Source: Planctomycetaceae bacterium
Lineage (GTDB): Bacteria; Planctomycetota; Planctomycetia; Planctomycetales; Planctomycetaceae
NCBI GenBank assembly: GCA_021732415.1
Contig: JAKFVC010000282.1
Coordinates: 1 to 41,991 of the forward strand
Direction: 5' to 3'
DNA length: 41,991 nt
Below are positions 21,061 through 41,773 of the stretch, in pieces (the first letter of the stretch is position 1; each line of letters begins with the position of its first letter). The translations under genes and the position numbers were made by a program. The notes under the pieces are model-generated. The model made no database searches. It was not told where the DNA came from and worked only from the letters and a program-made list of their open reading frames with translations.

Positions 21061-21782
21061 CGTTCAAGTCCTTTATCTCGTCGAGCCGCGAGATCTATAG
21101 TCATTGCCCCGGACGCCAGTCTAAAGTCCTCTCGAAGCCTGAGCAATCACGATTTGACGCAAATCAACTCAATTTGGCGAATCTCTTGGATCAGGTTCGA
21201 TTCGTCGCCAACTACGATTCACAGCAAGCCGCAACTCATTATCTCACAAACAGATATAACCGAGCAGGCCATCACGCCTGGACTTGAACACCGCCGATCA
21301 CGCAATGCCAGCAACGGTCTTTTCAAACTTCATTCGGTTTTCTTGAAAAAAAGCGGTACGAATTGCCAATTTCCGCAAACTCCAGATTATGGACCTCTAG
21401 TCTTGCCTTTTCGAAAGGTTCGCACGCCAAGGCCTTCTGCTCATCGGCACTGTGAACGACGCTGAATTCACTACCGAACTGACGCGCCGATATGAACTTT
21501 TGTTTCAGGTATCCACTCTTCGCAGAGCCTGCGACTCATCCATCGTCATCGGCGTATTGCCTTGCCGGAAACCGGAGAGTTGACCGGCTGCCAGGCTGTT
21601 TTCGCGATCGGCCGAATGCCGCGCGGAGAGACCGCTCCCGTCGATTGCTTTGACAGCGGTCGTCTTCCTTGAGGCAGATTGGACTCGTGCCAGAATCAAG
21701 TACCAAATCCGCCTGTCAGTCTCTTCTCACCAGTACCGAATGCATCCTCGACGATACTTCAAAGCGCGAAAGATAAAGTGTG
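21061..21782. other. Intergenic region between the sigma-factor gene and the giant surface-protein gene
   Basis: About 720 bases flanked by divergent genes. No frame reads as protein. It holds a 25-base element (21356-21380) repeated upstream of the third LEPR gene. It must contain the promoters of both neighbours, but none stands out by eye. Confidence 0.4.
21356..21380 (+). promoter_or_regulatory. Shared intergenic element, copy 1 (GTACGAATTGC-N6-CCGCAAAC)
   Basis: GTACGAATTGC (21356-21366), six variable bases, CCGCAAAC (21373-21380). The same 19 fixed bases with the same spacing recur at 30541-30565. This copy lies about 400 bases upstream of the 2890-aa LEPR gene. Possible binding site or start of a conserved leader; function unknown. 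Confidence 0.4.
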
Positions 21783-24700
21783 ATGGGAATGTTCTCCAAG
21801 TGGATGGCTCGTTGCCGCAATATTCTGACGTCCCGCGCTCAGGCGCATCGTCGGACTTCGCGGATTCGAAGCTTTCAATCGAGCTTTTCGGTTGGTGTTC
21901 AACTTCTCGAACCGCGTCTTCTGCTGACGGCGGCTGAATTTGCCGACCCACATCCCGCAGCGGGAAATCAATTCGGCGACAGTGTGACCGTGCTGACGAA
22001 TGGGAATGTGGTGATCACGTCTCCGAACGATGATGCGGGGGGCAACAACGCCGGCGCAGTCTACTTGTTCAACGGGCAGACCGGCGCGCTGATCAGTACC
22101 GTCCTGGGCTCTCACGCTGGCGATAGCATCGGCTCGCGAGACGTAATCGCTCTGAGCAACGGCAATTTTGTCTTCATCAGTCCGTCGTGGGATAATGGAG
22201 CCGTCACAGACGCGGGGGCAGTGACATTCGGCAACGGGACGACCGGGGTGAGCGGGACTGTCAGTGTGAGCAACAGTCTCGTCGGTTCGCATTCGGGTGA
22301 CATGAACAGTGCCTTGATCATGCCCCTGAGTACTGGCAACTACGTTGTCAGTAGCCCCGATTGGGATAACGGTACTGTCGTTGACGCGGGGGCGGTGACA
22401 TTCGGCAATGGAACGGTCGGCATCGTCGGCGTTGTTAGCGCCGGGAATAGCCTTGCTGGTTCACATGCGGATGACAAGGTAGGCAACGGGGGTATCACAT
22501 TGCTGACGAACGGTAACTATGTAGTCAGCAGCCCCGACTGGGACAATGGCTCGATTGTCGATGCGGGCGCCGCCACGTTATGTAACGGGAGCACGGCGAT
22601 TGCCGGGGCGGTTACGTCTACCAATAGCCTGGTGGGGAGTCATCCCAACGACGCGGTCAGCCGGTACGCTCTACACAACCGGGGCGTTACGGCCTTGAGT
22701 AATGGGAACTATATCGTCGCTTCTCCATCCTGGGACAATGGGAACGTTGTCGATGCGGGAGCAGTGACTTTTGGTAATGGCACGACTGGGATCAAGGGGA
22801 CAGTGAGTGCTAGTAACAGCCTGGTGGGAACCCAGGACGATGATTCGGTGGGGGGGGATGTCGATTACGGTGCATATAATTTTCTGGGAGGAATTACTGC
22901 ACTTACAAATGGCAATTACCTCGTGGCAAGTCCCGGCTGGAATAATGGGGGCATTGGCAATGCGGGCGCTGTGACCTTCGGCAATGGCTCGGCTGGTGTT
23001 GTGGGGGCGATCAATGTCACGAACAGTCTTGTGGGAAGTCAAGCAGATGACATGGTGGGCGGAACGCTGGAGACAGAGTTTACCCCCATGCATGCCGTTA
23101 CGGCACTCACTAATGGGAATTACGTAGTCGGCAGTCCCATGTGGGATAATGGGGGCGTGAGCGACGCTGGCGCCGCAACTTTTGGAAACGGAACGACAGG
23201 GGTCAAAGGGACCATCAGTGACACTAACAGTCTCGTAGGGACACAAGCGGGTGATTCCATAGGTGGCACATACGTGCTGTTCGATTTGTTCGTAACTGGA
23301 GGCATTACGGCATTAACCAATGGCAATTACGTAGTCGCCAGTCCAGCGTGGAGCAATGGGAGTGCACAGGGTGCCGGAGCGGTCACGTGGGGCAGCGGAT
23401 CGACAGGGATTACGGGAGCTGTCACCACTACAAACAGCCTGGTCGGGACACAAACTGCGCACTTGGTGGGGGGAGGAGCCGAATCAGTTGAAGGAAACGA
23501 GCGCGCCGTCACACCACTGGCCAATGGCAACTACGTAGTCACCAGTATCCTCTGGAGTAACGGCTCTGCAAAGGGTGCAGGTGCGGTTACTTTCGGCAAT
23601 GGGACCACCGGTGTAGCGGGCAGCGTGAGCGCGGCAAATAGCCTCGTCGGTACACAACAAAGTGACGGAGTCGGAGCAGGTGGCATTAGGGCATTGTCGA
23701 CCGGCAACTATGTCGTGTCCAGCCCCGTCTGGAATTCGGGGACGCTGCAACACGCGGGTGCTGCGACTTTAGGCAGCGGACTAACTGGCATCTCGGGAGC
23801 GGTCAGTTCGGCCAACAGTCTCGTTGGAAATCACCCGGAAGATCTGTTGGCAATTGGTGGCATCACCGCGCTGACTAATGGAAATTATCTGATCTACAGC
23901 CGCCGCTGGAATCACGACTCCGGGGCATTGACCTTTGGAAATGGAAATGTTGGAGTCAACGCAGCGGTCATCACTCCCAACAATAGTCGGACCGGAATCA
24001 AGTTCGACGATCTTGATCATACTCACATTAGTGTTATTCCGCTGAGCAACGGTAACTTTGTCGTCAATGCGCTGAGTTATGCGGGGCAAGACTCAAATGA
24101 GGGAGTCGTAATCTTCGAGGATGGACTGACGTCATTACAGGATACACTGGCTCCCTCGCGCTACATTATTGGAGCATCCCCTGGCGCAGGTTTCGACACA
24201 TTCGTCGTCCCGGACCCTTCCCATTCCGCCTTCTACGCGTCATTTCCCACGGATGGATCGGGCCACGTCTATCGCGGATCGGCAGTCACTGGATTTGCGT
24301 TGCCCCCAACTAGCATTTCCCTCTCCTCAAACACGGTGTCAGAGCAACAACCGGTTGGCAGGACGGTGGGGACATTCTCCGCGACCGATCCCAACCCGGG
24401 GAGTTCTATCACCTATTCATTGGTCAGCGGCTCGGGCAGTGCCGACAACCCGAAGTTTACCATTGTAAATGGTGCAACACGCACACTCAAAACGGCCGCG
24501 GTATTCGATTTCAATACCAAGCAAAGCTACTCAATCCGCGTCCGAGCCACCGATTCTGATGGCTTGTTTACCGAGCAAGTTTTCACGGTCAATGTGACCG
24601 GGGTCAACCAGGCTCCCACCAACATCTTGCTCTCTTCCAACACAGTCGCTGAGCACCAGCCGTTCGGCACAATCGGACACTTTTCGACGGTTGACCCCGA

Positions 24701-27700
24701 TTCCGGCAACACGTTCCAGTACTTCTTGGAGTTCCACGACTTTGGGGACAACAATAAATTCTTCCTTCTGGAAGACGGCACGCTGCAAGGGAGCGGGTTC
24801 GACTTCAAGGACAAAAGCACCTATATCATTACCGTCTACAGTTACGATCAAGACGGGCTGTTTATCACTAAAGACTTCACGATCCACGTGACTGATGTGG
24901 CGATTCCGCCGACCAATATTGAATTGTCGTCCAGTACGGTTGCCGAGAAGAAATTGGCCGGGACGATCGTCGGCAAATTCACCACGACCGACGCCGAATA
25001 TTACAGCACTTTTGCCTACACCTTGGGGGCTGGCGGCGACAACGCGGCGTTTACGATCGACTCCCAGGGTTTTCTGAGGACGAACTCCCCCCTTGATGCC
25101 GCTGTCCAGAACAGCTACACAATCTCGGTCACCAGTACAGATGACTCGAATCTCTCGATCACCGAGTTCTTCACGATCACGGTGACGCCGGTTGCTGCCG
25201 GCGGTGCGACGGAATTGCCCGACCCCAATGCTTTCGAGGGCAATCAGTTCGGTAGCTCAGTGACCGTACTGCCCAACGGCAATGTGGTCGTCACATCCGC
25301 CTATGATGATCTGGGTGGCACGGATGCGGGAGCCGTCTATTTATATAACGGTCAGACGGGCGCCTTGATCAGCTCACTGACGGGCTCGCACGTGAATGAT
25401 CATGTAGGAATGGACGGTATCACGGTCCTATCGAACGGCAACTTCCTGGTACGGAGTGCCTTCTGGAATACGGTCGGAGCGGTTACTTTCGTCAACGGAA
25501 CAACGGGACTGAATGGCGTTGTCAGCGCTTCCAATAGTCTGCTCGGGAGCACGGGCAGCGACCAGCTCGGCAGCAGCGGTGTCGTGGCTCTGCCTAACGG
25601 GAATTACGTCATCAGCAGTTACGAATGGAATAACGGTGCCCTGAACAACGCCGGGGCCGTAACGTTCGGGAACGGGACCACAGGTGTTTCGGGGATCATC
25701 ACGTCCAGCAACAGCCTGGTGGGGATGAAGGCGAACGATTTTGTCGGTGGCGGTGGAATTGCCGTGCTCACTAACGGCAATTATGTCATCACCAGCGGAA
25801 GCTGGGACAACGGTGCGGTCACCAATGTGGGGGCGGTGACGTTCGCCAGTGGCACGACGGGCATCACGGGCACGATCAGCACGGCGAACAGTCTCATCGG
25901 CAGTCAGACGAACGACGTCGTGGGAACCCGATTTGGCGGCCGCAATGGCGTGATCGCGTTGAAGAACGGGAACTACGTTGTCGCCAGCTCGGATTGGGAT
26001 AATGGCCCGACCGCGAATGCCGGCGCGGTCACGTTCGGCAACGGTACGACCGGAGTGAAAGGGACGATCAGTTCGGCCAACAGTCTCGTGGGCACCGTAG
26101 CAGGTGATCGCGTCGGATACGATGGTGTGACAGTCCTGGACAACGGCAACTATGTCGTCCGGAGCACCCAGTGGCATAACGGCGCACTGGCGGACGCCGG
26201 GGCAGTCACATTTGGTAATGGCACAACGGGCGTCAGTGGAAATGTTAGTGCTACTAATAGTCTGGTGGGAAGTCAAGCCGGTGACCGACTTGGGAATGGT
26301 GGAATCACCGTGCTGAGCAGCGGCAACTATGTGGTGGTGAGCAGCAGTTGGAATAATGGCGCTGTTGTGAATGCGGGCGCGGTTACGTTTGGAAGCAAGA
26401 CCGCCGGCGTCATTGGCACGGTTTCCGCCGGCAACAGTCTGGTGGGAAACCAGACTGACGATTCTGTCGGTGGCGGCGGAGTGACGGTATTAAGCAACGG
26501 CAACTATGTCGTCGCCAGCCCAGTTTGGAACAACGGCGCCACCGCCGATGCTGGTGCGGTGACATTCGGGAACGGAGCGACGGGCCTGTTTGGAACGGTC
26601 AGCGGAGCGAATAGTCTCGTCGGAACGCAGGCCAACGATAAGGTGGGAAGCGAAGGGGCCACAGCGCTCACGAATGGTAACTTCGTTGTAAAAAGCCGGT
26701 TTTGGGACAACGGGTCCGTGGTCGACGCGGGTGCCGTAACCTTCGGTAATGGGGTAACTGGTTTGACTGGTGCCGTCACCGCGGCAAATAGCCTCACAGG
26801 CAGTCACAATAATGACTTCGTAGGCCTCTACGGAGTGGTCGCTCTGACCAATGGAAATTATGTGGTCAGCAGCCCGGAATGGGACAACGACGCGAACGTC
26901 AATGCAGGGGCGGCCACTTTTGGCAACGGTGCGACCGGCGTGAGCGGACTGGTCACCGCCTCCAACAGTCTCGTAGGAACGCAAACGAATGATTATGTGG
27001 GCTACGCCGAGATGAAGGCGCTGAGCAACGGTAACTATGTCGTAAGCAGCCCGTACTGGAACAACGGATCGGTGGAGGGCGCCGGTGCGGTAACCTTTGG
27101 TAACGGAACGACTGGGATCTCGGGGGCCGTGAGCGCGGCCAATAGTCTCGTGGGCAGCCACGCATTGGACGGTGTGGGGGGGGCTGGAATCACCGCGCTC
27201 AGTAGCGGAAATTATGTCGTTGGCAGCTCGCTTTGGGATAATGGAAACGTAATTGAGGCCGGGGCCGTGACGTTCGGTGATGGCACTGTCGGCATCTCTG
27301 GCGTTGTCAGTTCGACTAACAGCCTAGTCGGAACATTGGAAAGTAACGGCGTAGGCACCAACGTTACTTCGCTCAGCAACGGCAGCTACCTTGTGCTGAG
27401 TTTCTACTTAGACAACGTAGCAGCGGTCAACAAGGTCGCAGTCAGTTTCGGCAGCAGCGTCACGGGCGTGAACGGCCCATTGAACCTCGACAACAGCTTA
27501 GCCGCTCCGCTCCCTCCAAGCCCCGCGCTCAATTCATTTGTCGTTGAGGACGCAACTCACTCAGCGCTTTATCTCTCGATTCCCAACGACGATTCCGGAC
27601 ATGTATACGTAGGATCGACAACAAGTGGCTTGTTCAAGAGCCCTCCCACCAGCATCGCGCTAGCGGGAAATATTATTGGCGAATTGCCAATAGTCGGTAC

Positions 27701-30455
27701 GTCAGTGGGAACATTCTCGACAGTCGATCCTGATTCTGGAAACACTTTCACCTATAGCTTCGTCAGCGGTAATGGCAGTGACGACAACAGCAAGTTCTCG
27801 ATCTCCGGAGGCAATCTGTTGACCGCTGGTACGTTCGACTACGAAACGAACGCTTTTGCCAGCATCAGAGTGCGCAGTACGGATCAAAGCGGTCTCTTCA
27901 CGGAGCAAATCTTTACCATCGGTCTGGTCAACCAGAACGAAGCGCCGACAGCGCTAGCCCTGACGAATAGCGTGATCGCTGAAAATCAAACTGCGCCAAC
28001 CACGGTGGGCAGCTTTATCACCACCGACCCCGATGCGGGAAATACGTTTAGCTACACATTGGTCAGCGGCAACGGCAGCACCGACAACAGCAGCTTTACG
28101 GTTGATAGCAGCGGCCACCTGCGGACTGCCTCAAACTTTAACTTCGAAACCAAGAACAGCTACACCATCCGCGTCCGCGTGGCAGATCAAGGTGGGCTGT
28201 CATTCGAGAGCCCATTCACGATCACGGTTGCAAATGTCAACGAAGCTCCGACGGGCCTGTCATTGTCCGCGCTCAGCATCGCCGAAAATAACGCTGCAGG
28301 TGCGACGATCGGCACTCTCACTGCGACGGACCCGGATGCCGGCAGCACATTCACGTTCAACCTCGTCACAGGACCGGGCGGCGATGACAACGACAGTTTT
28401 GACATCACTGACAATGTGCTAACGATCAATTCTCCGGTAGACTTCGAAACTCGAGCGAGTTATACCATTCGGATCCGAGCGACTGATCTCGATGGCCTGA
28501 CCTTCGAGAAGACATTCACCATCACGGTGACGAACTCCAATGAAGCACCGACAGATCTCGCCGTGTCCGCCAACAGCATTGCGGAAAACAACGCGGCCAA
28601 TGCGATTATCGGGACGCTCAGTGCGATTGACCCTGACGGCACTGGCACCTTCACCTTTAGCTTGGTCACGGGAGCTGGAAGCACTGACAATGGCAGCTTC
28701 TCGATCACCGGCAATACTTTGAAAGTCATCCCGAGCACCGATTTCGAGACGCAAAGTAGCTATTCCATTCGGATCCGCGCTACGGATCAAGGCGGTCTGA
28801 CCTTCGAGAGGCCGCTCACGATCAACGTGAACCTGGTCAACCTGGCACCGACAGACCTGTTGGTGTCGACAACCTCGATCGCCGAGAACAATGCGACGAA
28901 CGCCACTGTGGGAACCCTCAGCGCGAATGATCCTAATGCCGGGGATATTTTTGCCTACAGCCTGATTGCGGGCGTGGGGAGCGACGACAATGCCAGTTTC
29001 ACCATTTCAGGCAACGCACTGACGATCAATCCTGTCGCAAACTTTGAAGCGAAGAACAGCTATTCGGTCCGAATCCGAGTCACTGACCAAGGTGGGTTAA
29101 CGTTCGAGAAACCGATCACGATCTCAGTCACCAATCTGAATGAGACCCCAACTGATGTCGCACTGTCGGCCAGCAGCATCGCCGAGCACAATGCAGCCAA
29201 CGCCCCCGTCGGCACGCTAAACGCAATTGATCCGGATACCGGAAGCACCTTTACCTTTAGCCTCGTTGCGGGAATCGGCAGCAATGACAACGGCAGCTTC
29301 TCAATTTTGAACAATACGTTATCGATCATCCCCAGCACGAGTTTCGATACCAAAAATAGTTACGCGATTCGGATCGCGGCCACCGACCCGGGTGGGCTCA
29401 GCTTCGAAAAACAGTTCACCATCACAGTCACGCCAGTGAATCAAGCCCCCACAGACCTGACGTTGTCAGTCAACACAATCGCTGAGAACAATGCCGCCAA
29501 CGCGACGGTGGGAATGCTGAGCGCGACGGACCCCAATTCCGGTGAGTCGTTGACTTTCAGTCTGGTTGCGGGAATCGGAAGTACTGACAACGCCAGCTTC
29601 GCGATTTCCAATAACACCTTACAGGTCATTCCCACCACCAACTTTGAGACGAAGGCTAGCTACGCCATTCGCGTTCAAGTGATTGACCAGGAAGGGCTGA
29701 CGTTTGAGAAGCCGCTCACCATCGCAGTCACTGATGTCAACGAGGCGCCAAGTGATATCTCATTGTCGGTCAGCAGCATTGCTGAGAACAACGTACCGAA
29801 CGCCGCCGTGGGAATGCTCGGTGCGGTCGACCCCGACTCCGGTAACACATTTACCTTCAGTCTGGTTGCCGGAGTCGGCGGGACTGACAATGCCAGCTTC
29901 GCCATTTCCAATATTGCGTTGAAGATCATTCCCAGTGCGGACTTTGAGACTAAGAATAGTTACTCCATTCGGGTCAAGGTAACCGACCAGGACGGGCTGA
30001 CGTTTGAGAAGCCGCTGACGATCACGGTCACCGACGTTGCGGAAACAGTTCCCCCGACATTGAGCAGTGACTCAGTCGCAGTCGTCTCCAACAAAGCAAC
30101 GCGTATTGTCAAAGTGCTGCCGCTGATTGTTGTCGGGGGTACGAGCCTCGGTGGGGGCACACTGACAATCAGCTTGAACTCACCAGGCAAGAAGAAGCCG
30201 ACGGACACGTTGAAGTTCCCCTCGACATTGGGAACGATCCCGGCGCCGACGAAAATTGGCAGTCAGTTTGTCTGGCAATTCCAGCTTAATACCAATGTCA
30301 CTGCAGCCACGATTCAATCCTTCCTGAGAGGGTTGACCTTCTCGACAAAAGGTGGCGGATTGGGAGTTCCCTCGCGATTGTTGCAGGTGACATTGAGCAA
30401 TACGTCCCAGCAAAACGCACCCTTTAACCAGAGTATTACTGTAATTAAGAAATAA
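21783..30455 (+). CDS. Giant LEPR-XLL surface protein: two modules of propeller-like and cadherin-like repeats
   Basis: 2890 aa from ATG 21783; GTG 21780 or ATG 21789 are possible alternatives, and no strong ribosome-binding site decides between them. The basic N-terminus leads to LLEPRLLLTA (21903-21932), the canonical LEPR-XLL signature. Block 1 (about 50-840) has 12 repeats of about 60-68 aa with LTNGNYVVSSPxWDNG, AGAVTFGNGTTG and NSLVG, followed by three cadherin-like repeats (about 840-1140). Block 2 restarts with NQFGSSVTVLPNGNVVVTS, has 13 such repeats, then eight cadherin-like repeats (about 1957-2755: APTDL, SIAENN, DPDSGNTFTFSLV, FETKNSYSIR, DQGGLTFEK). The last ~130 residues form a beta domain like that ending the 1578-aa protein. 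There is no dockerin, LPxTG or autotransporter barrel. Likely a calcium-dependent surface or matrix protein; ligand unknown. Confidence 0.88.
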   Translation: MGMFSKWMARCRNILTSRAQAHRRTSRIRSFQSSFSVGVQLLEPRLLLTAAEFADPHPAAGNQFGDSVTVLTNGNVVITSPNDDAGGNNAGAVYLFNGQTGALISTVLGSHAGDSIGSRDVIALSNGNFVFISPSWDNGAVTDAGAVTFGNGTTGVSGTVSVSNSLVGSHSGDMNSALIMPLSTGNYVVSSPDWDNGTVVDAGAVTFGNGTVGIVGVVSAGNSLAGSHADDKVGNGGITLLTNGNYVVSSPDWDNGSIVDAGAATLCNGSTAIAGAVTSTNSLVGSHPNDAVSRYALHNRGVTALSNGNYIVASPSWDNGNVVDAGAVTFGNGTTGIKGTVSASNSLVGTQDDDSVGGDVDYGAYNFLGGITALTNGNYLVASPGWNNGGIGNAGAVTFGNGSAGVVGAINVTNSLVGSQADDMVGGTLETEFTPMHAVTALTNGNYVVGSPMWDNGGVSDAGAATFGNGTTGVKGTISDTNSLVGTQAGDSIGGTYVLFDLFVTGGITALTNGNYVVASPAWSNGSAQGAGAVTWGSGSTGITGAVTTTNSLVGTQTAHLVGGGAESVEGNERAVTPLANGNYVVTSILWSNGSAKGAGAVTFGNGTTGVAGSVSAANSLVGTQQSDGVGAGGIRALSTGNYVVSSPVWNSGTLQHAGAATLGSGLTGISGAVSSANSLVGNHPEDLLAIGGITALTNGNYLIYSRRWNHDSGALTFGNGNVGVNAAVITPNNSRTGIKFDDLDHTHISVIPLSNGNFVVNALSYAGQDSNEGVVIFEDGLTSLQDTLAPSRYIIGASPGAGFDTFVVPDPSHSAFYASFPTDGSGHVYRGSAVTGFALPPTSISLSSNTVSEQQPVGRTVGTFSATDPNPGSSITYSLVSGSGSADNPKFTIVNGATRTLKTAAVFDFNTKQSYSIRVRATDSDGLFTEQVFTVNVTGVNQAPTNILLSSNTVAEHQPFGTIGHFSTVDPDSGNTFQYFLEFHDFGDNNKFFLLEDGTLQGSGFDFKDKSTYIITVYSYDQDGLFITKDFTIHVTDVAIPPTNIELSSSTVAEKKLAGTIVGKFTTTDAEYYSTFAYTLGAGGDNAAFTIDSQGFLRTNSPLDAAVQNSYTISVTSTDDSNLSITEFFTITVTPVAAGGATELPDPNAFEGNQFGSSVTVLPNGNVVVTSAYDDLGGTDAGAVYLYNGQTGALISSLTGSHVNDHVGMDGITVLSNGNFLVRSAFWNTVGAVTFVNGTTGLNGVVSASNSLLGSTGSDQLGSSGVVALPNGNYVISSYEWNNGALNNAGAVTFGNGTTGVSGIITSSNSLVGMKANDFVGGGGIAVLTNGNYVITSGSWDNGAVTNVGAVTFASGTTGITGTISTANSLIGSQTNDVVGTRFGGRNGVIALKNGNYVVASSDWDNGPTANAGAVTFGNGTTGVKGTISSANSLVGTVAGDRVGYDGVTVLDNGNYVVRSTQWHNGALADAGAVTFGNGTTGVSGNVSATNSLVGSQAGDRLGNGGITVLSSGNYVVVSSSWNNGAVVNAGAVTFGSKTAGVIGTVSAGNSLVGNQTDDSVGGGGVTVLSNGNYVVASPVWNNGATADAGAVTFGNGATGLFGTVSGANSLVGTQANDKVGSEGATALTNGNFVVKSRFWDNGSVVDAGAVTFGNGVTGLTGAVTAANSLTGSHNNDFVGLYGVVALTNGNYVVSSPEWDNDANVNAGAATFGNGATGVSGLVTASNSLVGTQTNDYVGYAEMKALSNGNYVVSSPYWNNGSVEGAGAVTFGNGTTGISGAVSAANSLVGSHALDGVGGAGITALSSGNYVVGSSLWDNGNVIEAGAVTFGDGTVGISGVVSSTNSLVGTLESNGVGTNVTSLSNGSYLVLSFYLDNVAAVNKVAVSFGSSVTGVNGPLNLDNSLAAPLPPSPALNSFVVEDATHSALYLSIPNDDSGHVYVGSTTSGLFKSPPTSIALAGNIIGELPIVGTSVGTFSTVDPDSGNTFTYSFVSGNGSDDNSKFSISGGNLLTAGTFDYETNAFASIRVRSTDQSGLFTEQIFTIGLVNQNEAPTALALTNSVIAENQTAPTTVGSFITTDPDAGNTFSYTLVSGNGSTDNSSFTVDSSGHLRTASNFNFETKNSYTIRVRVADQGGLSFESPFTITVANVNEAPTGLSLSALSIAENNAAGATIGTLTATDPDAGSTFTFNLVTGPGGDDNDSFDITDNVLTINSPVDFETRASYTIRIRATDLDGLTFEKTFTITVTNSNEAPTDLAVSANSIAENNAANAIIGTLSAIDPDGTGTFTFSLVTGAGSTDNGSFSITGNTLKVIPSTDFETQSSYSIRIRATDQGGLTFERPLTINVNLVNLAPTDLLVSTTSIAENNATNATVGTLSANDPNAGDIFAYSLIAGVGSDDNASFTISGNALTINPVANFEAKNSYSVRIRVTDQGGLTFEKPITISVTNLNETPTDVALSASSIAEHNAANAPVGTLNAIDPDTGSTFTFSLVAGIGSNDNGSFSILNNTLSIIPSTSFDTKNSYAIRIAATDPGGLSFEKQFTITVTPVNQAPTDLTLSVNTIAENNAANATVGMLSATDPNSGESLTFSLVAGIGSTDNASFAISNNTLQVIPTTNFETKASYAIRVQVIDQEGLTFEKPLTIAVTDVNEAPSDISLSVSSIAENNVPNAAVGMLGAVDPDSGNTFTFSLVAGVGGTDNASFAISNIALKIIPSADFETKNSYSIRVKVTDQDGLTFEKPLTITVTDVAETVPPTLSSDSVAVVSNKATRIVKVLPLIVVGGTSLGGGTLTISLNSPGKKKPTDTLKFPSTLGTIPAPTKIGSQFVWQFQLNTNVTAATIQSFLRGLTFSTKGGGLGVPSRLLQVTLSNTSQQNAPFNQSITVIKK
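21990..24280 (+). repeat. Block 1: twelve ~180-200-bp repeats coding NGNYVV / AGAVTFGNG units
   Basis: Repeat units start at each L-x-NGNYVV motif, from LTNGNVVITS near 21991 to LSNGNFVVNA near 24045. Units vary in length because of inserts after NSLVG (for example near 22855, 23065 and 23270). The first unit (GAVYLFNGQTGALIS) differs from the rest and recurs at the head of block 2. The spacing and motif resemble FG-GAP/propeller-type blades, but the fold is inferred. Confidence 0.8.
24300..25200 (+). repeat. Three cadherin-like repeats closing module 1
   Basis: Units begin at about 24304, 24613 and 24904, each with P-T-x-I-x-L-S-S-x-T-V-x-E and TDxDGLF/TxDFT. They are more diverged than the eight copies in module 2. 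Confidence 0.75.
25210..27640 (+). repeat. Block 2: thirteen ~177-bp repeats coding NGNYVV / AGAVTFGNG units
   Basis: It begins with a copy of the first unit of block 1 (GNQFG, AGAVYLYNGQTGALIS) at about 25240. Units then follow nearly every 177 bp and end with a capping segment (DSGHVYVGSTTSG) matching the cap of block 1 (GSGHVYRGSAVTG). The repeated head and cap show that the whole block was duplicated as a unit. Confidence 0.8.
27645..30045 (+). repeat. Eight cadherin-like repeats with an exact 300-bp period
   Basis: Units start at about 27645, 27945, 28245, 28545, 28845, 29145, 29445 and 29745, in strict 300-bp register. They share E-APTDL-x-LS, SIAENNAAN, VGTL, DPDxG, TFTFSLV, FETKxSYxIRI and DQGGLTFEKPLTI. 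The later units are closest to one another at DNA level, as expected of recent tandem expansion or gene conversion. Confidence 0.85.
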
Positions 30456-34529: not shown

Positions 34530-35321
34530 GGCACACCATTTCGGGAGCCCGTGGTTATCCGAGCACTTATCGTGAAGCTGGCGCAGGAGAACTCGTGGGG
34601 CTACACCCGCATTCTCGGTGAACTTCGGAAACTCGGAATCAGGAAGATTAGCCGCCAGACGGTCAAGAACATTCTCAAGGAACATGGTCTCGCCCCCGGC
34701 CCGCAACGGGGCAAAGGGACGTGGGACGAGTTCCTGAAGGTCCACGCGGATACGCTCTGGCAGTGCGACTTTGCCACCAAGCGGATGTGGACGCTCCGAG
34801 GATTCGTGGACCTCTATTTCCTCGTGTTCGTGCAATTGGGCACACGCCGAAGTTGGATCTCACCCTGCACAGCACATCCGGATTCGGCTTGGTCATGCGA
34901 ACAGGCCCGTAACTTTTTGATGCACGCAGATGATGTCGAACTCACACCGAAGTACGTGATGCGGGACAACGACGGGAAGTATACCGACCAATTCGACGAG
35001 GTGTTTGAATCAAGCGACGCGGAAATCAAGCGGAACACACCGGCATCGACCAATCTGCGGGCGCACGTCGAACGATTCATCCAAACCCTGCAGGTCGAGT
35101 GTCTCGACAAGCTTGTCGTGGTATCACAGAGTCATCTCAATCTGATCAACCGCGAGTTTCAGCATTGGTACCACCATGAGCGGCCGCACTCGGCATGTGA
35201 CCATTTTCCACTTGCGTGTGAATCACCGACTGAATCTCAAGAAATGATCTGTCTAAGAGATGTGGTCTGTCAAACCAGACTTGGTGGTGTGCTGAAGTCC
35301 TACTCTCGACGCGCTGCGTGA
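34530..35321 (+). pseudogene. Integrase-core (DDE) transposase, N-terminus missing
   Basis: An open frame of about 260 codons ends at TGA 35319-35321. Present: WGYTRILGELRKLG and ISRQTVKNILKEHGLAP, then an rve-type catalytic core with Asp in QCDFATK, Asp in MRDNDGKYT and Glu in HVERFIQTLQ. The C-terminal RLGGVLKSYSRRAA resembles full-length relatives. The usual first ~90 residues with the HTH are absent; the frame is cut by TAA at 34506-34508 just upstream, near the last CTCTTTG copy. So the gene is truncated at the junction with the regulator-like element and is probably inactive. Related to IS3/IS481-type integrases. Confidence 0.65.
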
Positions 35322-35567: not shown

Positions 35568-35588
35568 GAAATGCGGGAGGAGAAAGCT

Positions 35589-35906
35589 TTGAGCAAATCA
35601 CATCTGCGACTAACCGATTTGGAAGCCTTGGGTGAAGCGGCGGAATGTCTGCGGATACTGGCCCATCCGCATCGTCTGCGAATGGTACAGATGTTGCTTC
35701 AAGGAGACTTCACTGTCAGCGAACTGGCTGAGGCCTGTGGGCTACCGAGCGCCATGGCATCGGAGCATTTGCGATTGATGCAGCGGTGTGGATTTCTCTC
35801 CAGCGAAAAGGACGGACGGAAGGTCTTCTATCGGGTTGCTGAACCACACCTGAAGAACATTCTCAAATGCATTGAAGATCGTTTTGATTCGCGAACGGGA
35901 AAATAG
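35589..35906 (+). CDS. ArsR-family repressor, candidate persulfide sensor of the operon
   Basis: 105 aa from TTG 35589, which has GGGAGGAG 6 bases upstream. The ATG 35571 lies upstream of the predicted transcription start and has no ribosome-binding site. The winged-helix ArsR fold is clear: LRILAHPHRLRMVQMLLQGD, TVSELAEACGLPSAMASEHL, then RCGFLSSEKDGRKVFYRV. Cysteines are at 20, 50, 67 and 94. There is no ArsR-type CxC metal motif, but the separated cysteines (for example 20 and 94) could form a thiol/polysulfide switch as in SqrR/BigR. First gene of a nine-gene operon for sulfide and persulfide metabolism, so it is inferred to repress it and release DNA when persulfide forms. The cysteine pair involved is a guess. 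Confidence 0.85.
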   Translation: MSKSHLRLTDLEALGEAAECLRILAHPHRLRMVQMLLQGDFTVSELAEACGLPSAMASEHLRLMQRCGFLSSEKDGRKVFYRVAEPHLKNILKCIEDRFDSRTGK

Positions 35907-35985: not shown

Positions 35986-36588
35986 ATGTCCATCAAAACC
36001 ATTTCACCTAAGCAGTTACATGATCTCGTGCAGTCTGGGCAGAACGTCGAGTTGATCGATGTTCGCACGCCTGTGGAGTACCGCGAGGTTCATGTCGACA
36101 TTGCACGAAATGTACCACTCGATCAACTCGACGCGGCGAAGATCGCGGTTGGCCGGGATAGCTCTGAACAGCCGCTGTATGTGATCTGTCGCTCGGGAAG
36201 CCGCGGCAATCAGGCGTGCGAAAGGTTTCTCGCAACAGGCTACACCAACGTGGTCAATGTCGAAGGGGGCACGCAGGCCTGGGACCAGGCGGGGCTACCG
36301 GTGGCGCGGGGTAAAAAGACCATTTCGCTCGAACGTCAGGTACGCATCGCAGCCGGTGCGCTTGTGCTGATTGGCTCGCTTCTGGGCTTTTTCGCACATC
36401 CGTACTGGATCGGGCTGTCGGCGTTTGTGGGTGCCGGACTGGTGTTTGCCGGGATCACCGATACCTGCGGGATGGGCCTGCTGCTCGCCCGGATGCCGTG
36501 GAATCAAGTTCCCAAGACACCGCCTGGCACCTCCACCAGCAAGACCGAACCCTGTCCGCCGGCGTCGAAGGCATCGTGTTGCAACTGA
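35986..36588 (+). CDS. Membrane-anchored rhodanese (rhodanese + DUF2892)
   Basis: 200 aa from ATG 35986. AGGAG (35975-35979) lies 6 bases upstream of this second of two adjacent ATGs. A single rhodanese domain (about 1-110) has the active loop CRSGSR with Cys68 (LYVICRSGSRGNQAC), then a DUF2892-type membrane hairpin (about 118-168: IAAGALVLIGSLLGFFAHPYW; SAFVGAGLVFAGI), like E. coli YgaP. The tail is Cys-containing (ending SKASCCN). It moves sulfane sulfur to or from thiols such as glutathione persulfide, at the membrane's inner face. It lies 79 bases after the repressor and 87 before the dioxygenase, probably one transcript. The extra C-terminal cysteines are unusual and may accept sulfur. 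Confidence 0.88.
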   Translation: MSIKTISPKQLHDLVQSGQNVELIDVRTPVEYREVHVDIARNVPLDQLDAAKIAVGRDSSEQPLYVICRSGSRGNQACERFLATGYTNVVNVEGGTQAWDQAGLPVARGKKTISLERQVRIAAGALVLIGSLLGFFAHPYWIGLSAFVGAGLVFAGITDTCGMGLLLARMPWNQVPKTPPGTSTSKTEPCPPASKASCCN

Positions 36589-36675: not shown

Positions 36676-38109
36676 ATGATTCTCAAGCAATACTACCTTG
36701 GTTGTCTGGCACACGCGTCTTATCTGATCGCCGATGAACGGACGAAACAGGCCGTGGTCGTCGATCCGCAGCGAGACATCGAGCAATACCTCCGTGACGC
36801 TCAGGAAGGGGGCTACGCGATCAAATACGTCGTCCTGACGCACTTTCATGCGGACTTCCTCGCTGGTCACATCGAACTGCGCAACCGCGCCGGTGCCCGC
36901 ATCGTGATGGGGGCCCGTGCTCAAGCTGAGTTTGATGTCCAGTCCGTGAAAGATGGGGACCTCTTCGAACTGGGGGATGTCCGTATCCAGATTCTGGAGA
37001 CACCAGGGCATACTCCCGAAGGGATCTCGCTGCTGGTTTTCGACCGCACTCGAAGTGACACGGTTCCACATGCGGTCCTCACTGGAGACACGCTCTTCAT
37101 TGGTGACGTTGGTCGGCCCGACCTTCTGGCCTCCATCGGAGTCACGGCGGACGAATTGGCCGAGATGCTGTACCACTCGCTCAACAAGTTACGCGATCTG
37201 CCCGACGCCACGCTCGTTTATCCGGCCCACGGAGCCGGTTCAATGTGTGGTAAGAACCTGAGTAAAGAAACGGTCTCGACGATTGGCGAACAGAAGCGTT
37301 TTAACTACGCCTTGCAACCGATGAGCTTTGAAGACTTCAAGCCGCTGGTGACGAGCGATCAGCCGGAAGCACCAGACTACTTTGTGTACGATGCGATCAA
37401 GAATCGACAAGAGCGGCCGGATCTCGAAGCCACGCTCCGTAGTTCCCTGAAAGCGCTCAATGTGGATGACGTTGTGCGACTGAAGAACCAGGGCGCGGAA
37501 CTGGTCGATGTTCGCGAAGCGGCCGAATTCGAAGGGGCGCATCTCGCTGGCTCGATCAACATTGGTCTCAAAGGGAAGTATGCCACCTGGTGTGGATCGA
37601 TCCTCAGTCACGATCGACCGATTGTGGTGATCGCTGATCCAGGGAACGAAGAAGAAGCGGTGATGCGATTGGGGCGCATCGGCTTCGACAATGTCGCCGG
37701 TTGTCTCCGCGACGGATTGGCGGCGCTGGAACCACATCCCGAATTGATTCGGGTGATTTCGCGGATCACGGCGCCTGCGTTGGCCGAACAATTGGCAGAG
37801 TCGCCGAGTCCGTTCGTCGTGGATGTCCGCTCGGAGAAAGAGTGGCAATCCGGACATGTGGCTTGCAGTCATAACATCCCGTTGACGCACTTGCGGCAGC
37901 GGATGGCGGAAGTGCCCGAGGATCGGCCGGTCGTGGTCCACTGCGAAGGAGGCTATCGCTCGGCGATTGGCACCAGTCTGCTCGCGGAGGCGGGGCGAAC
38001 CAACGTCAGCGACCTTGTCGGTGGTATCAAGGCGTGGATTGCTTCGAAGTTGCCGACAGAATCCGATGGGGCCAAGTCGCCTGCTTGTACCGCTTCCTGC
38101 ACGAAGTAA
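36676..38109 (+). CDS. CstB-like persulfide dioxygenase / rhodanese fusion
   Basis: 477 aa. GAGG lies ahead of ATG 36676. The N-terminal metallo-beta-lactamase-fold persulfide dioxygenase domain (about 1-240) has THFHADFLAGH (His56, His58, Asp60, His65), TPGHTPEG (His112), TGDTLFIGDVGRPDL (Asp138) and YPAHGAGS (His185); the Fe(II) of this family is bound by two His and one Asp. Two rhodanese domains follow. The first (about 262-352) lacks the catalytic Cys (VVIADPGNEEEA), a pseudo-rhodanese. The second (about 363-460) has Cys423 in VVHCEGGYRS. The same order, with an inactive middle domain, is known for CstB of Staphylococcus, which turns persulfides into thiosulfate. The C-terminus ends with extra cysteines (CTASCTK). 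Cytoplasmic; acts after SQR. Confidence 0.9.
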   Translation: MILKQYYLGCLAHASYLIADERTKQAVVVDPQRDIEQYLRDAQEGGYAIKYVVLTHFHADFLAGHIELRNRAGARIVMGARAQAEFDVQSVKDGDLFELGDVRIQILETPGHTPEGISLLVFDRTRSDTVPHAVLTGDTLFIGDVGRPDLLASIGVTADELAEMLYHSLNKLRDLPDATLVYPAHGAGSMCGKNLSKETVSTIGEQKRFNYALQPMSFEDFKPLVTSDQPEAPDYFVYDAIKNRQERPDLEATLRSSLKALNVDDVVRLKNQGAELVDVREAAEFEGAHLAGSINIGLKGKYATWCGSILSHDRPIVVIADPGNEEEAVMRLGRIGFDNVAGCLRDGLAALEPHPELIRVISRITAPALAEQLAESPSPFVVDVRSEKEWQSGHVACSHNIPLTHLRQRMAEVPEDRPVVVHCEGGYRSAIGTSLLAEAGRTNVSDLVGGIKAWIASKLPTESDGAKSPACTASCTK

Positions 38110-38142
38110 TTGAGTTCCCCTGGTCTCAAGAGGAGTGATGTC

Positions 38143-38277
38143 ATGTACGACATATTGTTTTTTGCCAGTCTCTTCGCAGGCTGGATCGTTCTGAACAAGT
38201 GGGTTCTGCCGTGGCTCGGCATTCCGACCTGCATGAGTGGTGCTTGCCGGGTTCCACATGTCGAGCAAGACGCATAA
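38143..38277 (+). CDS. 44-aa membrane peptide with two cysteines
   Basis: ATG 38143 with AGGAG 7 bases upstream, TAA at 38275-38277. One membrane span (ILFFASLFAGWIVLNKWVLP) is followed by a short tail with CMSGAC, two cysteines four residues apart, then RVPHVEQDA. Homologous small proteins may be annotated as hypothetical in similar loci; I do not recognise a family. It sits between the dioxygenase and the exporter genes (33 and 99 bases) on the same strand with a good ribosome-binding site, so expression within the operon is likely. The cysteine pair could carry a persulfide or bind a metal; the small size suggests an accessory subunit of a membrane partner such as the TSUP exporter. Confidence 0.7.
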   Translation: MYDILFFASLFAGWIVLNKWVLPWLGIPTCMSGACRVPHVEQDA

Positions 38278-38376: not shown

Positions 38377-39195
38377 ATGTTGTGGCTGAGCCTAATCTTT
38401 GGAGCGGTGGTGGGGCTCTCGCTAGGCCTGACCGGTGGTGGAGGTGCGCTTTTCGCCGTTCCGCTCCTGGTCTACGGACTGCATGTTCCTACGCGGGAGG
38501 CTGTGGGGATCTCCCTCGCGGCAGTCGGAGCGACCTCGCTCGTCGGCTTCCTGCACCGCTGGAAGCTAGGCCAAGTCGAAATACGTACCGGCCTGTTGTT
38601 CGCGGTCGCGGGGATGGCTGGTGCTCCGGTCGGTACCTGGATCGCCGGATTCCTGCCTGAGACCGTTCTGTTGCTGTCGTTCGCTGGCCTGATGGTCATT
38701 GTCGCCGTACAGCTTTGGCAACAGGCATCGCGTCCTGACATCCCGGCAGCGGCTTGTCCGACGCCGGAACACCTGGACGGTCCCACTTGCCAGCGAGACG
38801 CCGCTGGGGTGTTGATTTTGAATTCGCGGTGTGCCGTGCTGCTGCTCATCGTGGGAGTACTGACCGGAGTGCTGTCGGGAGTCTTCGGCGTCGGTGGCGG
38901 GTTCGTCATCGTTCCCGCTTTGGTGCTTTTCAGCGGCATGTCGATCCACCGCGCCGTCGGCACTTCGCTGATGGTGATTGCCCTGGTCAGTGCGTCGGGC
39001 GTCGGCTCGCAGCTGTGGGCCGGGCGCGCCATCTCGCCAGTCGTCACGCTGTTGTTCGTCATGGGTGGGATTGCCGGGTTGTTTGCCGGTCAGCAAATCG
39101 GTCGCCGGTTGTCCGGCCCGGTACTCCAGAAAGTGTTCGTCGTCGCCATCCTCACGGTGGCAGTATTTGTCATCGTACGAAATCTCAGCGCCTGA
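38377..39195 (+). CDS. TauE/SafE (TSUP) family sulfur-anion exporter
   Basis: 272 aa. The two halves of a TSUP permease are visible: GLSLGLTGGGGALFAVPLL near the N-terminus and GVLSGVFGVGGGFVIVPAL at about 165-185, each followed by a REAVGISLA / HRAVGTSLM motif. About eight membrane spans are separated by a hydrophilic loop with Cys (SRPDIPAAACPTPEHLDGPTC, about 118-138). TSUP proteins export sulfite, sulfoacetate or similar anions, and in persulfide operons are thought to remove sulfite or thiosulfate. The ATG at 38377 has only a weak upstream GAGA. The Cys-rich loop between halves is not typical for all members. Confidence 0.85.
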   Translation: MLWLSLIFGAVVGLSLGLTGGGGALFAVPLLVYGLHVPTREAVGISLAAVGATSLVGFLHRWKLGQVEIRTGLLFAVAGMAGAPVGTWIAGFLPETVLLLSFAGLMVIVAVQLWQQASRPDIPAAACPTPEHLDGPTCQRDAAGVLILNSRCAVLLLIVGVLTGVLSGVFGVGGGFVIVPALVLFSGMSIHRAVGTSLMVIALVSASGVGSQLWAGRAISPVVTLLFVMGGIAGLFAGQQIGRRLSGPVLQKVFVVAILTVAVFVIVRNLSA

Positions 39196-39217: not shown

Positions 39218-40414
39218 ATGTCCGACACTATTCACCATCAAGTCGTCATCGTGGGTGGCGGCACGGCGGGCATCACGGTTGCCGCGCAACTGACGAGAAG
39301 TTGGCTCCATCGTCGTGACGTAGCGGTCATTGAGCCTTCGGACAAACACTATTACCAACCGCTGTGGACTCTTGTGGGGGCTGGCTTGGCGAAGAAAGAG
39401 TCCACCGAACGTGCCGAAGCTTCAGTCATCCCGCGTCGCGTGACCTGGATCCAGGATGCAGTCGCCGAGTTTCTCCCCGAGCAGAATGCGATCCGGACCC
39501 GAGACGGCAGAACGGTCACTTACGACTGGCTGATTGTCGGAGCGGGTCTGCAGATCAACTGGGACAAGATTCCCGGTTTGAAGGAGTCGATCGGCAAGAA
39601 CGGCGTTTGCAGCAACTATTCTTATGCAACCGTCGATTCGACCTGGGAGGCGATTCGCAACTTTCGTGGAGGCAACGCCGTATTCACGAATCCTTCCGGA
39701 GCCGTCAAGTGCGGTGGAGCGCCCCAGAAGATCATGTACCTGGCGGATGACCGGCTCCGTGAGGCCGGAGTCAGGGACAAATCAAAAATCATCTACGCCT
39801 CGGCGCTGCCGAACATCTTTGCCATCGAACGCTATAAGGCCACCTTGGAGCGGGTTGTCGCTCGTAAGCAGATTGAGTGTCGGTTCCGTCACGAACTGAT
39901 CGAGATTCGGCCCGACGCCAAAGAGGCAGACTTTAAGAATCTGGACACCCAGGAGACAGTCACGATTCCCTACGACCTGCTGCACGTGACCCCGCCTATG
40001 GGCCCGCCCTCGTTCATCGCCAACAGTCCGCTCGCCGACAAGCATGGTTGGATCGACGTGGACAAGGACACGCTCCGTCACATCCGGTTCGCCAATGTGT
40101 TCGCACTTGGTGACTGCAGCAATCTGCCCACATCCAAGACCGGTGCCGCGATCCGAAAGCAGGCACCCATCGTTGTGCGAAACGTTCTCGCGGCCATGCA
40201 GGGTCAACCCTTGACGGCCAAGTATGACGGCTACACCTCGTGTCCGCTCGTCACAGGCATCGGCAAGCTGGTCCTGGCCGAGTTCAATTACAAGAAGGAA
40301 CCTGATGAGACATTTCCTGTCGATCAGTCGAAAGAACGCTGGAGCATGTGGATTCTCAAACGGTATCTCTTGCCCCTCTTCTACTGGTACGGAATGCTGA
40401 AGGGCCGCATGTAG
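39218..40414 (+). CDS. sqr: Sulfide:quinone oxidoreductase, type II (mitochondrial SQOR-like)
   Basis: 398 aa from ATG 39218 with AAGGAA 7 bases upstream, 22 bases after the exporter. FAD-binding VVIVGGGTAGITVA at the N-terminus; second dinucleotide-type segment LIVGAGLQINW. Redox cysteines Cys165 (AVKCGGAPQKIMYL) and Cys342 (GYTSCPLVTG) align with the active pair of human SQOR (Cys201 and Cys379); Cys131 is an extra. The FAD site ends in ANVFALGDCSNLPTSKTGAA. C-terminal EPDETFPVDQSKERWSMWIL is the signature of the type II group. It oxidises sulfide to a persulfide on an acceptor thiol and reduces quinone at the membrane. The best substrate-defining gene of the operon. Confidence 0.93.
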   Translation: MSDTIHHQVVIVGGGTAGITVAAQLTRSWLHRRDVAVIEPSDKHYYQPLWTLVGAGLAKKESTERAEASVIPRRVTWIQDAVAEFLPEQNAIRTRDGRTVTYDWLIVGAGLQINWDKIPGLKESIGKNGVCSNYSYATVDSTWEAIRNFRGGNAVFTNPSGAVKCGGAPQKIMYLADDRLREAGVRDKSKIIYASALPNIFAIERYKATLERVVARKQIECRFRHELIEIRPDAKEADFKNLDTQETVTIPYDLLHVTPPMGPPSFIANSPLADKHGWIDVDKDTLRHIRFANVFALGDCSNLPTSKTGAAIRKQAPIVVRNVLAAMQGQPLTAKYDGYTSCPLVTGIGKLVLAEFNYKKEPDETFPVDQSKERWSMWILKRYLLPLFYWYGMLKGRM

Positions 40415-40472
40415 TCGGGTCGGCAACGTTACTGCTGTCGATCATGTTTCTTCAACCTGGAGAATGACGCCG

Positions 40473-41141
40473 ATGGACCGTCACGAGCATTGGAATTCGA
40501 TCTATCAGACGAAGGCGGTGTCAGACGTCAGCTGGTTCGAGTCGGAGCCGAACACGTCCCTGACATTGATCACCGCGGCCTCACCCAAGCGCGGCAGCGT
40601 GATCGATGTGGGAGGCGGAGCTTCGCGCCTCGTTGACAGGCTGGTGGCTGCCGGCTTCGAGTCGGTCACGGTGCTTGATATTTCGGAGATCGCGCTGGAA
40701 CATGCCAAGGCAAGGTTGGGTGTCCAAGCCAATCAGGTTCGCTGGATTGTGGGAGATATCTGCCAGATCGCGGAACTGTCCCGCTGCGACGTCTGGCATG
40801 ATCGGGCCGTGTTCCACTTTCTGACGGATCCGCATGACCGCCGGAAGTATGTCGATCTAGTCACCCGCACATTGCGTGTCGGCGGGCATTTGATCATGGG
40901 TACCTTCGCGATTGATGGCCCACTGAAATGCAGCGGCCAGGATGTCTGCCGCTATGATGCGAGGACGCTGTCTCACGAGCTGGGGCCACGATTCAACCTG
41001 GTACGCGAGTTGTCGTACACTCACCTGACCCCAACCAGCAAGCCCCAATCATATTTCTTCGGCCTGTTTGAACTCTTGCCACAGTCGATCGCGCCCACGA
41101 TCGGATCTGCACCACGCACCGCTGAGGACTTATCGGCTTGA
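40473..41141 (+). CDS. Class I SAM-dependent methyltransferase
   Basis: 222 aa from ATG 40473. GGAG (40459-40462) is 10 bases from it but only one base from ATG 40464, which makes 40464 unlikely; relatives in memory also start with MDR-x-x-HW. SAM site: VIDVGGGASRLVDRLVAAGF (motif I), VLDIS (acidic end of beta 2), and VWHDRAVFHFL (motif with Asp/His). The family is of undefined substrate; similar proteins are often labelled type-11/12 methyltransferase. Its place between SQR and an exported DsrE protein suggests a sulfur substrate such as H2S, a thiol or a related chalcogenide, but nothing in the sequence proves that. Confidence 0.8.
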   Translation: MDRHEHWNSIYQTKAVSDVSWFESEPNTSLTLITAASPKRGSVIDVGGGASRLVDRLVAAGFESVTVLDISEIALEHAKARLGVQANQVRWIVGDICQIAELSRCDVWHDRAVFHFLTDPHDRRKYVDLVTRTLRVGGHLIMGTFAIDGPLKCSGQDVCRYDARTLSHELGPRFNLVRELSYTHLTPTSKPQSYFFGLFELLPQSIAPTIGSAPRTAEDLSA

Positions 41142-41209: not shown

Positions 41210-41773
41210 ATGTCGTTTCTCGGGAAACTTATCTTCGGCCTTGCGTTGGCAATGCATGTGCTGCCAGTTGTTTCGGCCCAGGACAAAAGCATTGCGTCTG
41301 TTCAACTGGTTTTTCCAATCATTCCCAAACACGGGGGGGTGTTGCCGCGTCCCAATGCCGTCGAAAAACCGCGGGCGGGTGCCAAGGTCGTCTTCGATAC
41401 GACCGCAGATGCCAAACCGACCGATGTCAACAAAGGACTCGACCGCGTCGCCCGGCTGCTGAATCTCTACGGAACTGCCGGACTGAAAGCTCAAGACGTA
41501 AAGATCACGATTGTCCTGCACGGCGAAGCCACCAAATCCGCTTTGAATGACGCGGCTTACAAGGCGCGGTTTCAGATCGAACGGAATCCCAATCTACCGC
41601 TGATCCACGAGCTTCAGAAAGCAGGGGTGGAAGTCCTGGTGTGCGGTCAGGCTCTCAACTACAAGGGCTTCCCGGATGCCGAAGTCGCCGATGGGATACC
41701 GATCGCTGCCGCCGCCCTGACCGTGGTCATCAACAAACAAACCGACGGGTACTCGTACATCCCCGTTCCGTAG
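41210..41773 (+). CDS. Exported DsrE/DsrF-family protein
   Basis: 187 aa. AAAGGA 9 bases upstream of ATG 41210. A Sec signal (KLIFGLALAMHVLPVVSA, cleavage near residue 23-24) is followed by a DsrE-like alpha/beta domain (about 55-180): VVFDTTADAKP, DVKITIVLHGEATKSALN, LIHELQKAGVEVLVCGQAL with Cys145 at the position of the persulfide-carrying cysteine of DsrE/TusD. DsrE proteins are normally cytoplasmic sulfur carriers, so an exported one suggests handling of sulfane sulfur outside the membrane. It lies between the methyltransferase and the presumed cytochrome c gene (19 bases). Confidence 0.85.
   Translation: MSFLGKLIFGLALAMHVLPVVSAQDKSIASVQLVFPIIPKHGGVLPRPNAVEKPRAGAKVVFDTTADAKPTDVNKGLDRVARLLNLYGTAGLKAQDVKITIVLHGEATKSALNDAAYKARFQIERNPNLPLIHELQKAGVEVLVCGQALNYKGFPDAEVADGIPIAAAALTVVINKQTDGYSYIPVP

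Follow-up and report, generated by a model that had tools for sequence, protein, structure and literature searches.

A 44-residue membrane peptide of a planctomycete sulfur operon, probably the cysteine form of a widespread and very short selenoprotein family

Is the open frame of 44 codons that lies between a persulfide-dioxygenase-like gene and a TauE/TSUP-type gene in a planctomycete a real gene, and what could its product do there? The frame is part of the window analysed here, that is, the whole stretch of 41,991 nt of Planctomycetaceae bacterium DNA (contig JAKFVC010000282.1). An earlier note on this DNA, made from the sequence alone, had described it as a membrane peptide with two cysteines and proposed a sulfur relay, a metal site or an exporter subunit. 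The translation of 38143-38277 is MYDILFFASLFAGWIVLNKWVLPWLGIPTCMSGACRVPHVEQDA followed by TAA, and coordinates, frame and peptide all match that note. The gene and its parts are as follows.

38130..38135, + strand: ribosome-binding site GAGGAG, 7 nt upstream of the ATG
38143..38277, + strand: gene for a 44-aa single-span peptide, Cys form of a U/C-M-S-x-x-C family (sequence, translation and homologue searches)
38146..38217, + strand: predicted membrane helix, codons 2-25 (AlphaFold2; the same stretch is hydrophobic across the family)
38230..38232, + strand: Cys30 codon TGC; TGA (Sec) in most homologues, from the homologue comparison
38245..38247, + strand: Cys35 codon TGC, second half of the U/C-x4-C pair, invariant in the 82-row alignment

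The last 12 kb of the window are overlapped by 113 open frames of at least 40 aa. Frames of the peptide's size are thus common by chance, and conservation becomes the decisive test of 38143-38277. A search of the phylum with the peptide gave matches at E≤0.01 in 24 of 293 other genomes (25 of 294 including the window's own); one of the 24 (L027) is an apparent chance match and was set aside. A single in-frame TGA falls exactly at the Cys30 site in 20 of these matches, and three (in genomes G167, G181 and G238) have Cys. Named records were also scanned with a DNA pattern that permits TGA, TGC or TGT at site 30. At least 118 loci were retrieved, three of which (L067, L088 and L106; all TGA) were dropped as chance matches without a span; among the matches listed, the 115 credible loci have TGA in 109 cases and TGY in six. 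The class set, which is profile-based and free of the M-S-x-x-C pattern restriction, contains 85 places besides the window: 60 Sec, 24 Cys and one degenerate (G428, G343 and G378 were counted as Sec).

All these searches point to a family with one span followed by P-x-x-G-x-x-T-[U/C]-M-S-x-x-C, with homologues of similar size in many phyla. The titles of the pattern loci, among the matches listed, include Deltaproteobacteria, Geobacteraceae, Syntrophobacteraceae, Acidobacteria, Planctomycetes and Verrucomicrobia, and further Melainabacteria/Obscuribacter, Armatimonadetes, Spirochaetes, Anaerolineae, Myxococcota, KSB1, KSB3, Zixibacteria and LCP-89. A tblastn search of plasmids and phages with a typed consensus gave zero matches. 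In the pattern matches listed, with L100 (at a contig edge) excluded from the start statistics, site 30 follows the start codon by 29 or 28 codons in 101 of 114 genes, and the start is ATG in 110 of 114. Four-base sequences resembling a Shine-Dalgarno (SD) site precede 156 of 179 family starts, compared with 117 of 583 control windows. Most family members have 45-75 residues, and the gene length is at most 75 aa in 106 of the 112 complete genes among the pattern matches listed. In alignment A3, whose 82 rows (the window, 75 of 114 pattern-set genes and 6 of 24 phylum-set loci) were hand-picked for variety, P23, G26, T29, C/U30 and C35 are invariant, and L22, M31 and S32 are conserved in at least 90%. 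As the pattern fixes M-S-x-x-C after residue 30, conservation there in loci L029-L146 arises partly from the way they were selected.

Genome G561, from the same genus as the window, has the frame in the same place, with seven synonymous and four non-synonymous codon differences. Comparison of the window with four Cys relatives gave uncorrected pN/pS values of 0.26-0.32, at pS values (0.56-0.73) that are near saturation. Across 44 pairs without overlap, the uncorrected pN/pS was 0.24 in the 27 codons ahead of site 30 and 0.16 in the five that follow, rising to 0.67 over the ten codons beyond. The peptide frame is under purifying selection. The earlier note had proposed a check by conservation and dN/dS, and the frame and both cysteines are indeed kept in syntenic loci. 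The single span is conserved with them, and these loci carry persulfide and sulfide-oxidation genes. From these comparisons, 38143-38277 almost certainly encodes a genuine small membrane protein, the Cys member of a widespread selenoprotein family. That the frame is open by chance and without translation is hardly credible: the abundance of similar-sized frames in this region speaks for it, but the family shows conserved sequence, start position and SD sites, purifying selection and SECIS hairpins.

Evidence for selenocysteine at residue 30 comes from the RNA downstream of the site and from the hosts. SECIS statistics were calculated on 191 deduplicated copies (listed pattern matches, class set and window; L005-L028 excluded), with a hairpin defined by a stem of at least 4 bp and a loop centred 15-34 nt past the UGA, and with a stretch 60 nt further on as control. 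Hairpins of this type follow the site in 148 of 160 TGA copies, 18 of 31 Cys copies and 68 of 160 controls. A G in the first two loop bases is found in 142/160 Sec copies, 11/31 Cys copies and 30/160 controls, and a stem of at least 6 bp in 121/160, 2/31 and 13/160, respectively. The mean folding z is -1.13 for Sec copies and 0.00 for Cys copies, and some Sec copies, such as L091 (z 0.05), fold weakly on their own. The corresponding stretch of the window copy has a folding z of 0.40, and this copy carries TGC in place of UGA; by codon and SECIS it is no selenoprotein gene itself.

Among 248 class genomes, selA scores above its cut-off in 53 of the 58 that have a Sec copy, in 2 of the 21 with Cys copies alone and in 77 of the 168 that are peptide-free (Sec versus Cys-only, Fisher p 8.6e-12 with relatedness ignored). 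The Sec genomes without selA above the cut-off are G294 (partial match), G338, G404, G418 and G501. Twenty-six genomes hand-picked from the listed pattern loci gave selA in 19 of 20 with Sec and one of six with Cys. A selB match at E≤3e-83 is present in 19 of 20 Sec genomes found by the phylum search, G008 (83% complete) being the exception, against a background of 190 of 294 phylum genomes above the cut-off. The 112 complete family genes among the pattern matches listed terminate with TAA (45), TGA (41) or TAG (26). TGA is therefore a true terminator in 41 of them, and recoding is local rather than a wholesale reassignment of TGA. Taken at the sequence level, there is little doubt that most family members would place Sec at residue 30 by UGA recoding.

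With the first cysteine replaced by Sec in most relatives, the window peptide is to be read as the Cys form of a selenoprotein family. The earlier reading of a Cys peptide was right about the real gene and the two cysteines, and missed the Sec at the first of them in most relatives. Cys appears to have replaced Sec chiefly where the genome lacks selA. The window's host departs from this in retaining the machinery: its genome has selA with an adjoining tRNA-Sec gene and a selB match (E 9.4e-90), its Cys copy is the sole copy found, and it is one of the two selA-bearing genomes among the 21 that are Cys-only. A tree of the small protein (190 sequences, 37 columns, quick method) has at least ten Sec/Cys changes, although it is poorly resolved and the direction of change is unset. 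Four genomes (G357, G384, G452 and G442; loci L196, L197, L198, L208, L258, L212 and L249) contain one Sec and one Cys copy each. Degenerate copies were also observed. L240 (G314) is a decayed copy with Trp at site 30 and TGA at codon 4. L220 (G501) is a decaying copy with an in-frame TAG, and its genome has no selA match at E≤1e-60. L267 (G563), closely related to the window operon but somewhat more distant than G561, has Tyr in place of Cys30 and retains Cys35.

AlphaFold2 predicted a single helix at residues 2-25 (mean pLDDT 76.3), with a less confident C-terminal part. Positive charges average 0.29 up to 14 residues before site 30 and 1.61 in the next 15 residues. They are thus rare in the first half of the peptide and commoner in what follows, and by the positive-inside rule this charge pattern places the C-terminus in the cytoplasm, as we infer.

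The window peptide is encoded in a co-directed set of predicted sulfur-metabolism genes.

35571..35906, + strand: ArsR-family regulator (NF033788, above cut-off)
35986..36588, + strand: fusion of a rhodanese and a YgaP-like membrane domain (domain match; start codon uncertain)
36676..38109, + strand: MBL-fold protein with two rhodanese domains, persulfide-dioxygenase (PDO)/CstB-like by architecture (Lactamase_B and two Rhodanese stretches)
38377..39195, + strand: TauE/TSUP-family membrane protein (PF01925, 162 bits)
39218..40414, + strand: FAD/NAD(P) oxidoreductase, type III sulfide:quinone reductase (SQR)-like (best NCBIfam match NF049943, 250 bits, under the 525 cut-off)
41210..41773, + strand: DsrE-family protein (domain match)

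The peptide gene starts 33 nt past the end of the MBL/rhodanese gene, and 99 nt separate it from the TauE/TSUP gene downstream. ETHE1-type enzymes carry the metallo-beta-lactamase motif HxHxDH; the motif in 36676-38109 is THFHADF, and the metal site may differ from the ETHE1 type. The same protein ends in a Cys pair, CTASC (window 38086-38106), and similar tails are found in relatives with and without the peptide. Such a tail, frequent in PDO-rhodanese proteins of the window's family, was considered as a partner arm of the peptide. This was rejected, because the tail occurs without the peptide (e.g. G393, G216, G465, G401, G486 and G480) and because G548 carries the peptide but lacks the tail. 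A SAM-dependent methyltransferase gene (window 40464-41141) lies between the SQR-like and DsrE genes.

In each of the 16 other places of the window's family, a PDO/rhodanese-type match lies on the same strand no more than 3 kb upstream. These cases are not independent, since a single genus contributes ten of the 16 genomes. Most of these PDO-type proteins share 34-41% identity with that of the window, and the match in G358 is apparently to the rhodanese-YgaP protein alone. Within the same distance and on the same strand, SQR (at least 45% identity) was found in 13 of the 16 places, TSUP in 14 (some of the matches merely 27-33% identical) and DsrE in 11. In the rest of the class, at least one co-directed match to PDO, rhodanese, SQR or TSUP lies within 3 kb in 17 of 67 places (83 of the 85 class places entered the neighbour table). 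Operons of the sulfide-oxidation type contain both Cys copies (e.g. L087, L179 and L185) and Sec copies (L181/L091, L182 and L191). Among the 30 best PDO-type loci of the window's family, 26 extend at least 1.2 kb downstream (L285, L286, L289 and L294 are too short); the peptide is directly downstream in five, the window included, and 21 are without it there. In G389 it is located further downstream of the PDO-type gene. The operon can therefore work without an adjoining peptide, which appears to be an accessory to the PDO-type operon.

Neighbours within 4 kb were counted in 193 places by strand (same:opposite). The ratios are 36:3 for rhodanese-YgaP and 33:3 for PDO-rhodanese, two queries that cross-match, 25:0 for SQR-type, which includes distant flavoproteins of 22-25% identity, 21:0 for TSUP, 17:0 for thioredoxin, 15:0 for DsrE, 14:0 for FmdB, 7:0 for DUF6132, 3:0 for DsbD, 1:0 for TRAP and 18:18 for ArsR. 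Genes without a sulfur link are also biased (RND membrane-fusion 14:2, histidine kinase 5:1, ABC ATPase 5:2). A preference for the same strand is thus not peculiar to sulfur genes but somewhat general, and taken by itself it offers modest evidence. Places outside the class gave ratios of 11:0 for thioredoxin, 14:0 for FmdB, 7:0 for DUF6132, 10:1 for PDO-rhodanese and 3:0 for SQR-type. Neighbours vary by lineage, and the 193 places share no universal partner. The immediate neighbours of the listed pattern loci are very mixed, the top Pfam match being rhodanese upstream (6 of 67 genes) and thioredoxin downstream (4 of 52); the scans covered 67 of 70 upstream genes (without L057, L090 and L122) and 52 of 53 downstream genes (without L118).

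A thioredoxin gene lies directly downstream of the peptide in L124, L116, L078, L089, L145 and G500. In two of these, L145 with Sec and G500 with Cys, no stop separates the peptide frame from thioredoxin, and in L091 the frame likewise continues into an SQR-like gene. All three apparent fusions contain internal ATGs, two of them preceded by an SD-like sequence, and may instead be coupled genes. The peptide has an FmdB-type zinc-ribbon gene next to it in 14 places (L036, L043, L073, L077, L109, L115 and others), none of them in the planctomycete class set. DUF6132-type genes adjoin it on the same strand in L033, L064, L070, L077, L110, L113 and L121.

Scanning of 82 members against Pfam-A and NCBIfam gave weak matches scattered over unrelated families, with best E values of 0.002 and 0.0029, respectively. 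The most frequent Pfam match was PF04602, which is unrelated (8 of 82 members, best E 0.015). A profile search of the PDB gave a best match of E 0.95, and the NCBIfam models for Tso (TsoA/B/C/X/Y) or other selenoproteins are absent among the peptide matches. Table 1 of a 2026 review (PMC13188914), the part of that source used here, lists 119 bacterial selenoprotein families or subfamilies, including those of Haft and Tolstoy 2025, mostly with NCBIfam accessions; the peptide's motif or family is absent from this table. NCBIfam has no fitting model, the families of Haft and Tolstoy 2025 being covered through the accessions of the review's table. Such a protein is not described in the available portions of PMC12013277, PMC2398784, PMC5029168 and PMC4807772, nor in the titles and abstract openings of the best literature matches. 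In its available portion, PMC2398784 mentions a 'Hypothetical protein GOS_A' without sequence, which could be the same family. As far as these partial sources extend, the peptide family is not in the libraries and selenoprotein inventory checked.

The family shares with bacterial selenoproteins an in-frame UGA set against Cys in homologues, a SECIS-like hairpin just downstream and the presence of Sec machinery in most hosts. It differs from the listed selenoproteins in being very short, with one span, no recognisable thioredoxin fold and U-x4-C spacing, and the window copy differs further in encoding Cys. Selenoproteins with redox genes around them also make up the Tso, SAO and type III SQR systems, and the SQR of the window is related to NF049943, under its cut-off as given above. 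A selenoprotein SQR in the same operon was looked for in 30 chosen loci, whose SQR matches contain no stop. DUF6132 (PF19628) resembles the peptide in having a membrane span followed by C-x-S-G-x-C with identical Cys spacing, but its C-terminal half is different, carrying SNPW and another hydrophobic stretch. The domain is absent among the Pfam matches of the peptides, and hhalign gave a probability of only 10.8 over 30 columns. The two appear to share a motif resemblance, with homology not established. The YgaP-like transmembrane domain (PF11127), which is fused to rhodanese and also present in the window's operon, is another small membrane module of sulfur metabolism; it has no sequence match to the peptide family.

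What might such a peptide do? The simplest reading of a Sec/Cys pair with five-residue spacing on the inner side of the membrane, encoded next to thioredoxin, rhodanese and SQR genes, is a thiol/selenol relay. The peptide would be anchored with its C-terminus in the cytoplasm, and Sec/Cys30 and Cys35 would lie at the inner membrane face. The pair may cycle between a selenenylsulfide or disulfide and the reduced state, or residue 30 may carry sulfane sulfur, and partners of the thioredoxin type would recharge or reduce the peptide. In planctomycete sulfide-oxidation operons it would act at the membrane in the persulfide chemistry that connects SQR with the rhodanese/persulfide dioxygenase of the cytoplasm. 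The order of partners would be thioredoxin, then the peptide, then persulfide chemistry. We give this membrane-anchored selenol/thiol relay, linking thioredoxin to sulfane-sulfur chemistry, a little under an even chance, and the 'sulfur relay' of the earlier note survives as a likely mechanism. The broader proposal is doubtful in its full extent, namely that the micro-selenoprotein family, in a dozen or so phylum-level groups, would act as a selenol relay tethered to the membrane, possibly by carrying selenopersulfide, and so connect thioredoxin and rhodaneses of the cytoplasm with SQR chemistry at the membrane.

Several other functions may be set beside the relay. A membrane-anchored, thioredoxin-dependent (seleno)peroxidase or lipid-hydroperoxide reductase, a general antioxidant for which sulfide-oxidation operons would be one of several uses, is unlikely. 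Sec chemistry with a resolving Cys five residues on, the 17:0 co-direction of thioredoxin, the wide distribution and the variable neighbourhoods are all consistent with it, but no such fold or motif is recognisable in 44-60 residues and the planctomycete link is to sulfane-sulfur enzymes. Soft-metal binding suits Sec and Cys, and the U/C-x4-C pair could also be a soft-metal or metalloid ligand at the membrane, in a small metallochaperone or sensor accessory. FmdB-type genes, all co-directed in their 14 places, and ArsR-family matches within 4 kb, 18 on the same strand and 18 on the opposite one, would fit such a role. We regard it as rather improbable: the commonest co-directed neighbours among the queries are rhodanese, SQR-type, thioredoxin and DsrE, and the peptide frame is continuous with thioredoxin and an SQR-like gene. 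ArsR need not indicate metal, since ArsR proteins include the sulfur sensor BigR, as stated in the available part of PMC5823870.

The exporter subunit of the earlier note is a weak reading. A small structural or regulatory subunit of the TSUP exporter or of a membrane-bound SQR, with cysteines for docking, would agree with the position of the peptide between PDO-rhodanese and TSUP/SQR genes in the window and its relatives, and with the L091 frame that is open into an SQR-like gene. Constant pairing with TSUP was tested as a mark of a subunit and failed: of the 193 places, 21 have a TSUP match and 25 an SQR-type match co-directed within 4 kb. TSUP operons without the peptide exist, and a docking residue fails to explain the strong preference for Sec. 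A subunit role is distinctly improbable.

A gene of about 50 codons with a stop-like UGA at codon 29-30 would appear to gene callers as a stub of fewer than 30 codons. If the selenoprotein reading is right, a common family has been overlooked through its short genes and internal UGA, and a minimal single-helix architecture is added to the selenoproteins. If the relay reading is also right, a selenol is placed at the membrane beside sulfide oxidation and thioredoxin. Natural Sec/Cys pairs in the same operon would allow testing of why selenium is used. Sec forms are present in named records that are not metagenome-assembled, from Citrifermentans bremense, Desulfocicer vacuolatum, Thermodesulfatator autotrophicus, Pelovirga terrestris and Geomesophilobacter sediminis, and the family can therefore be tested.

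Two further features of the window were observed. An IS481/IS3-like transposase gene (window 34551-35321; under the NCBIfam cut-offs) lies upstream of the operon, and a repetitive open frame of 2891 residues, cadherin-like by eye, occupies window 21780-30455.
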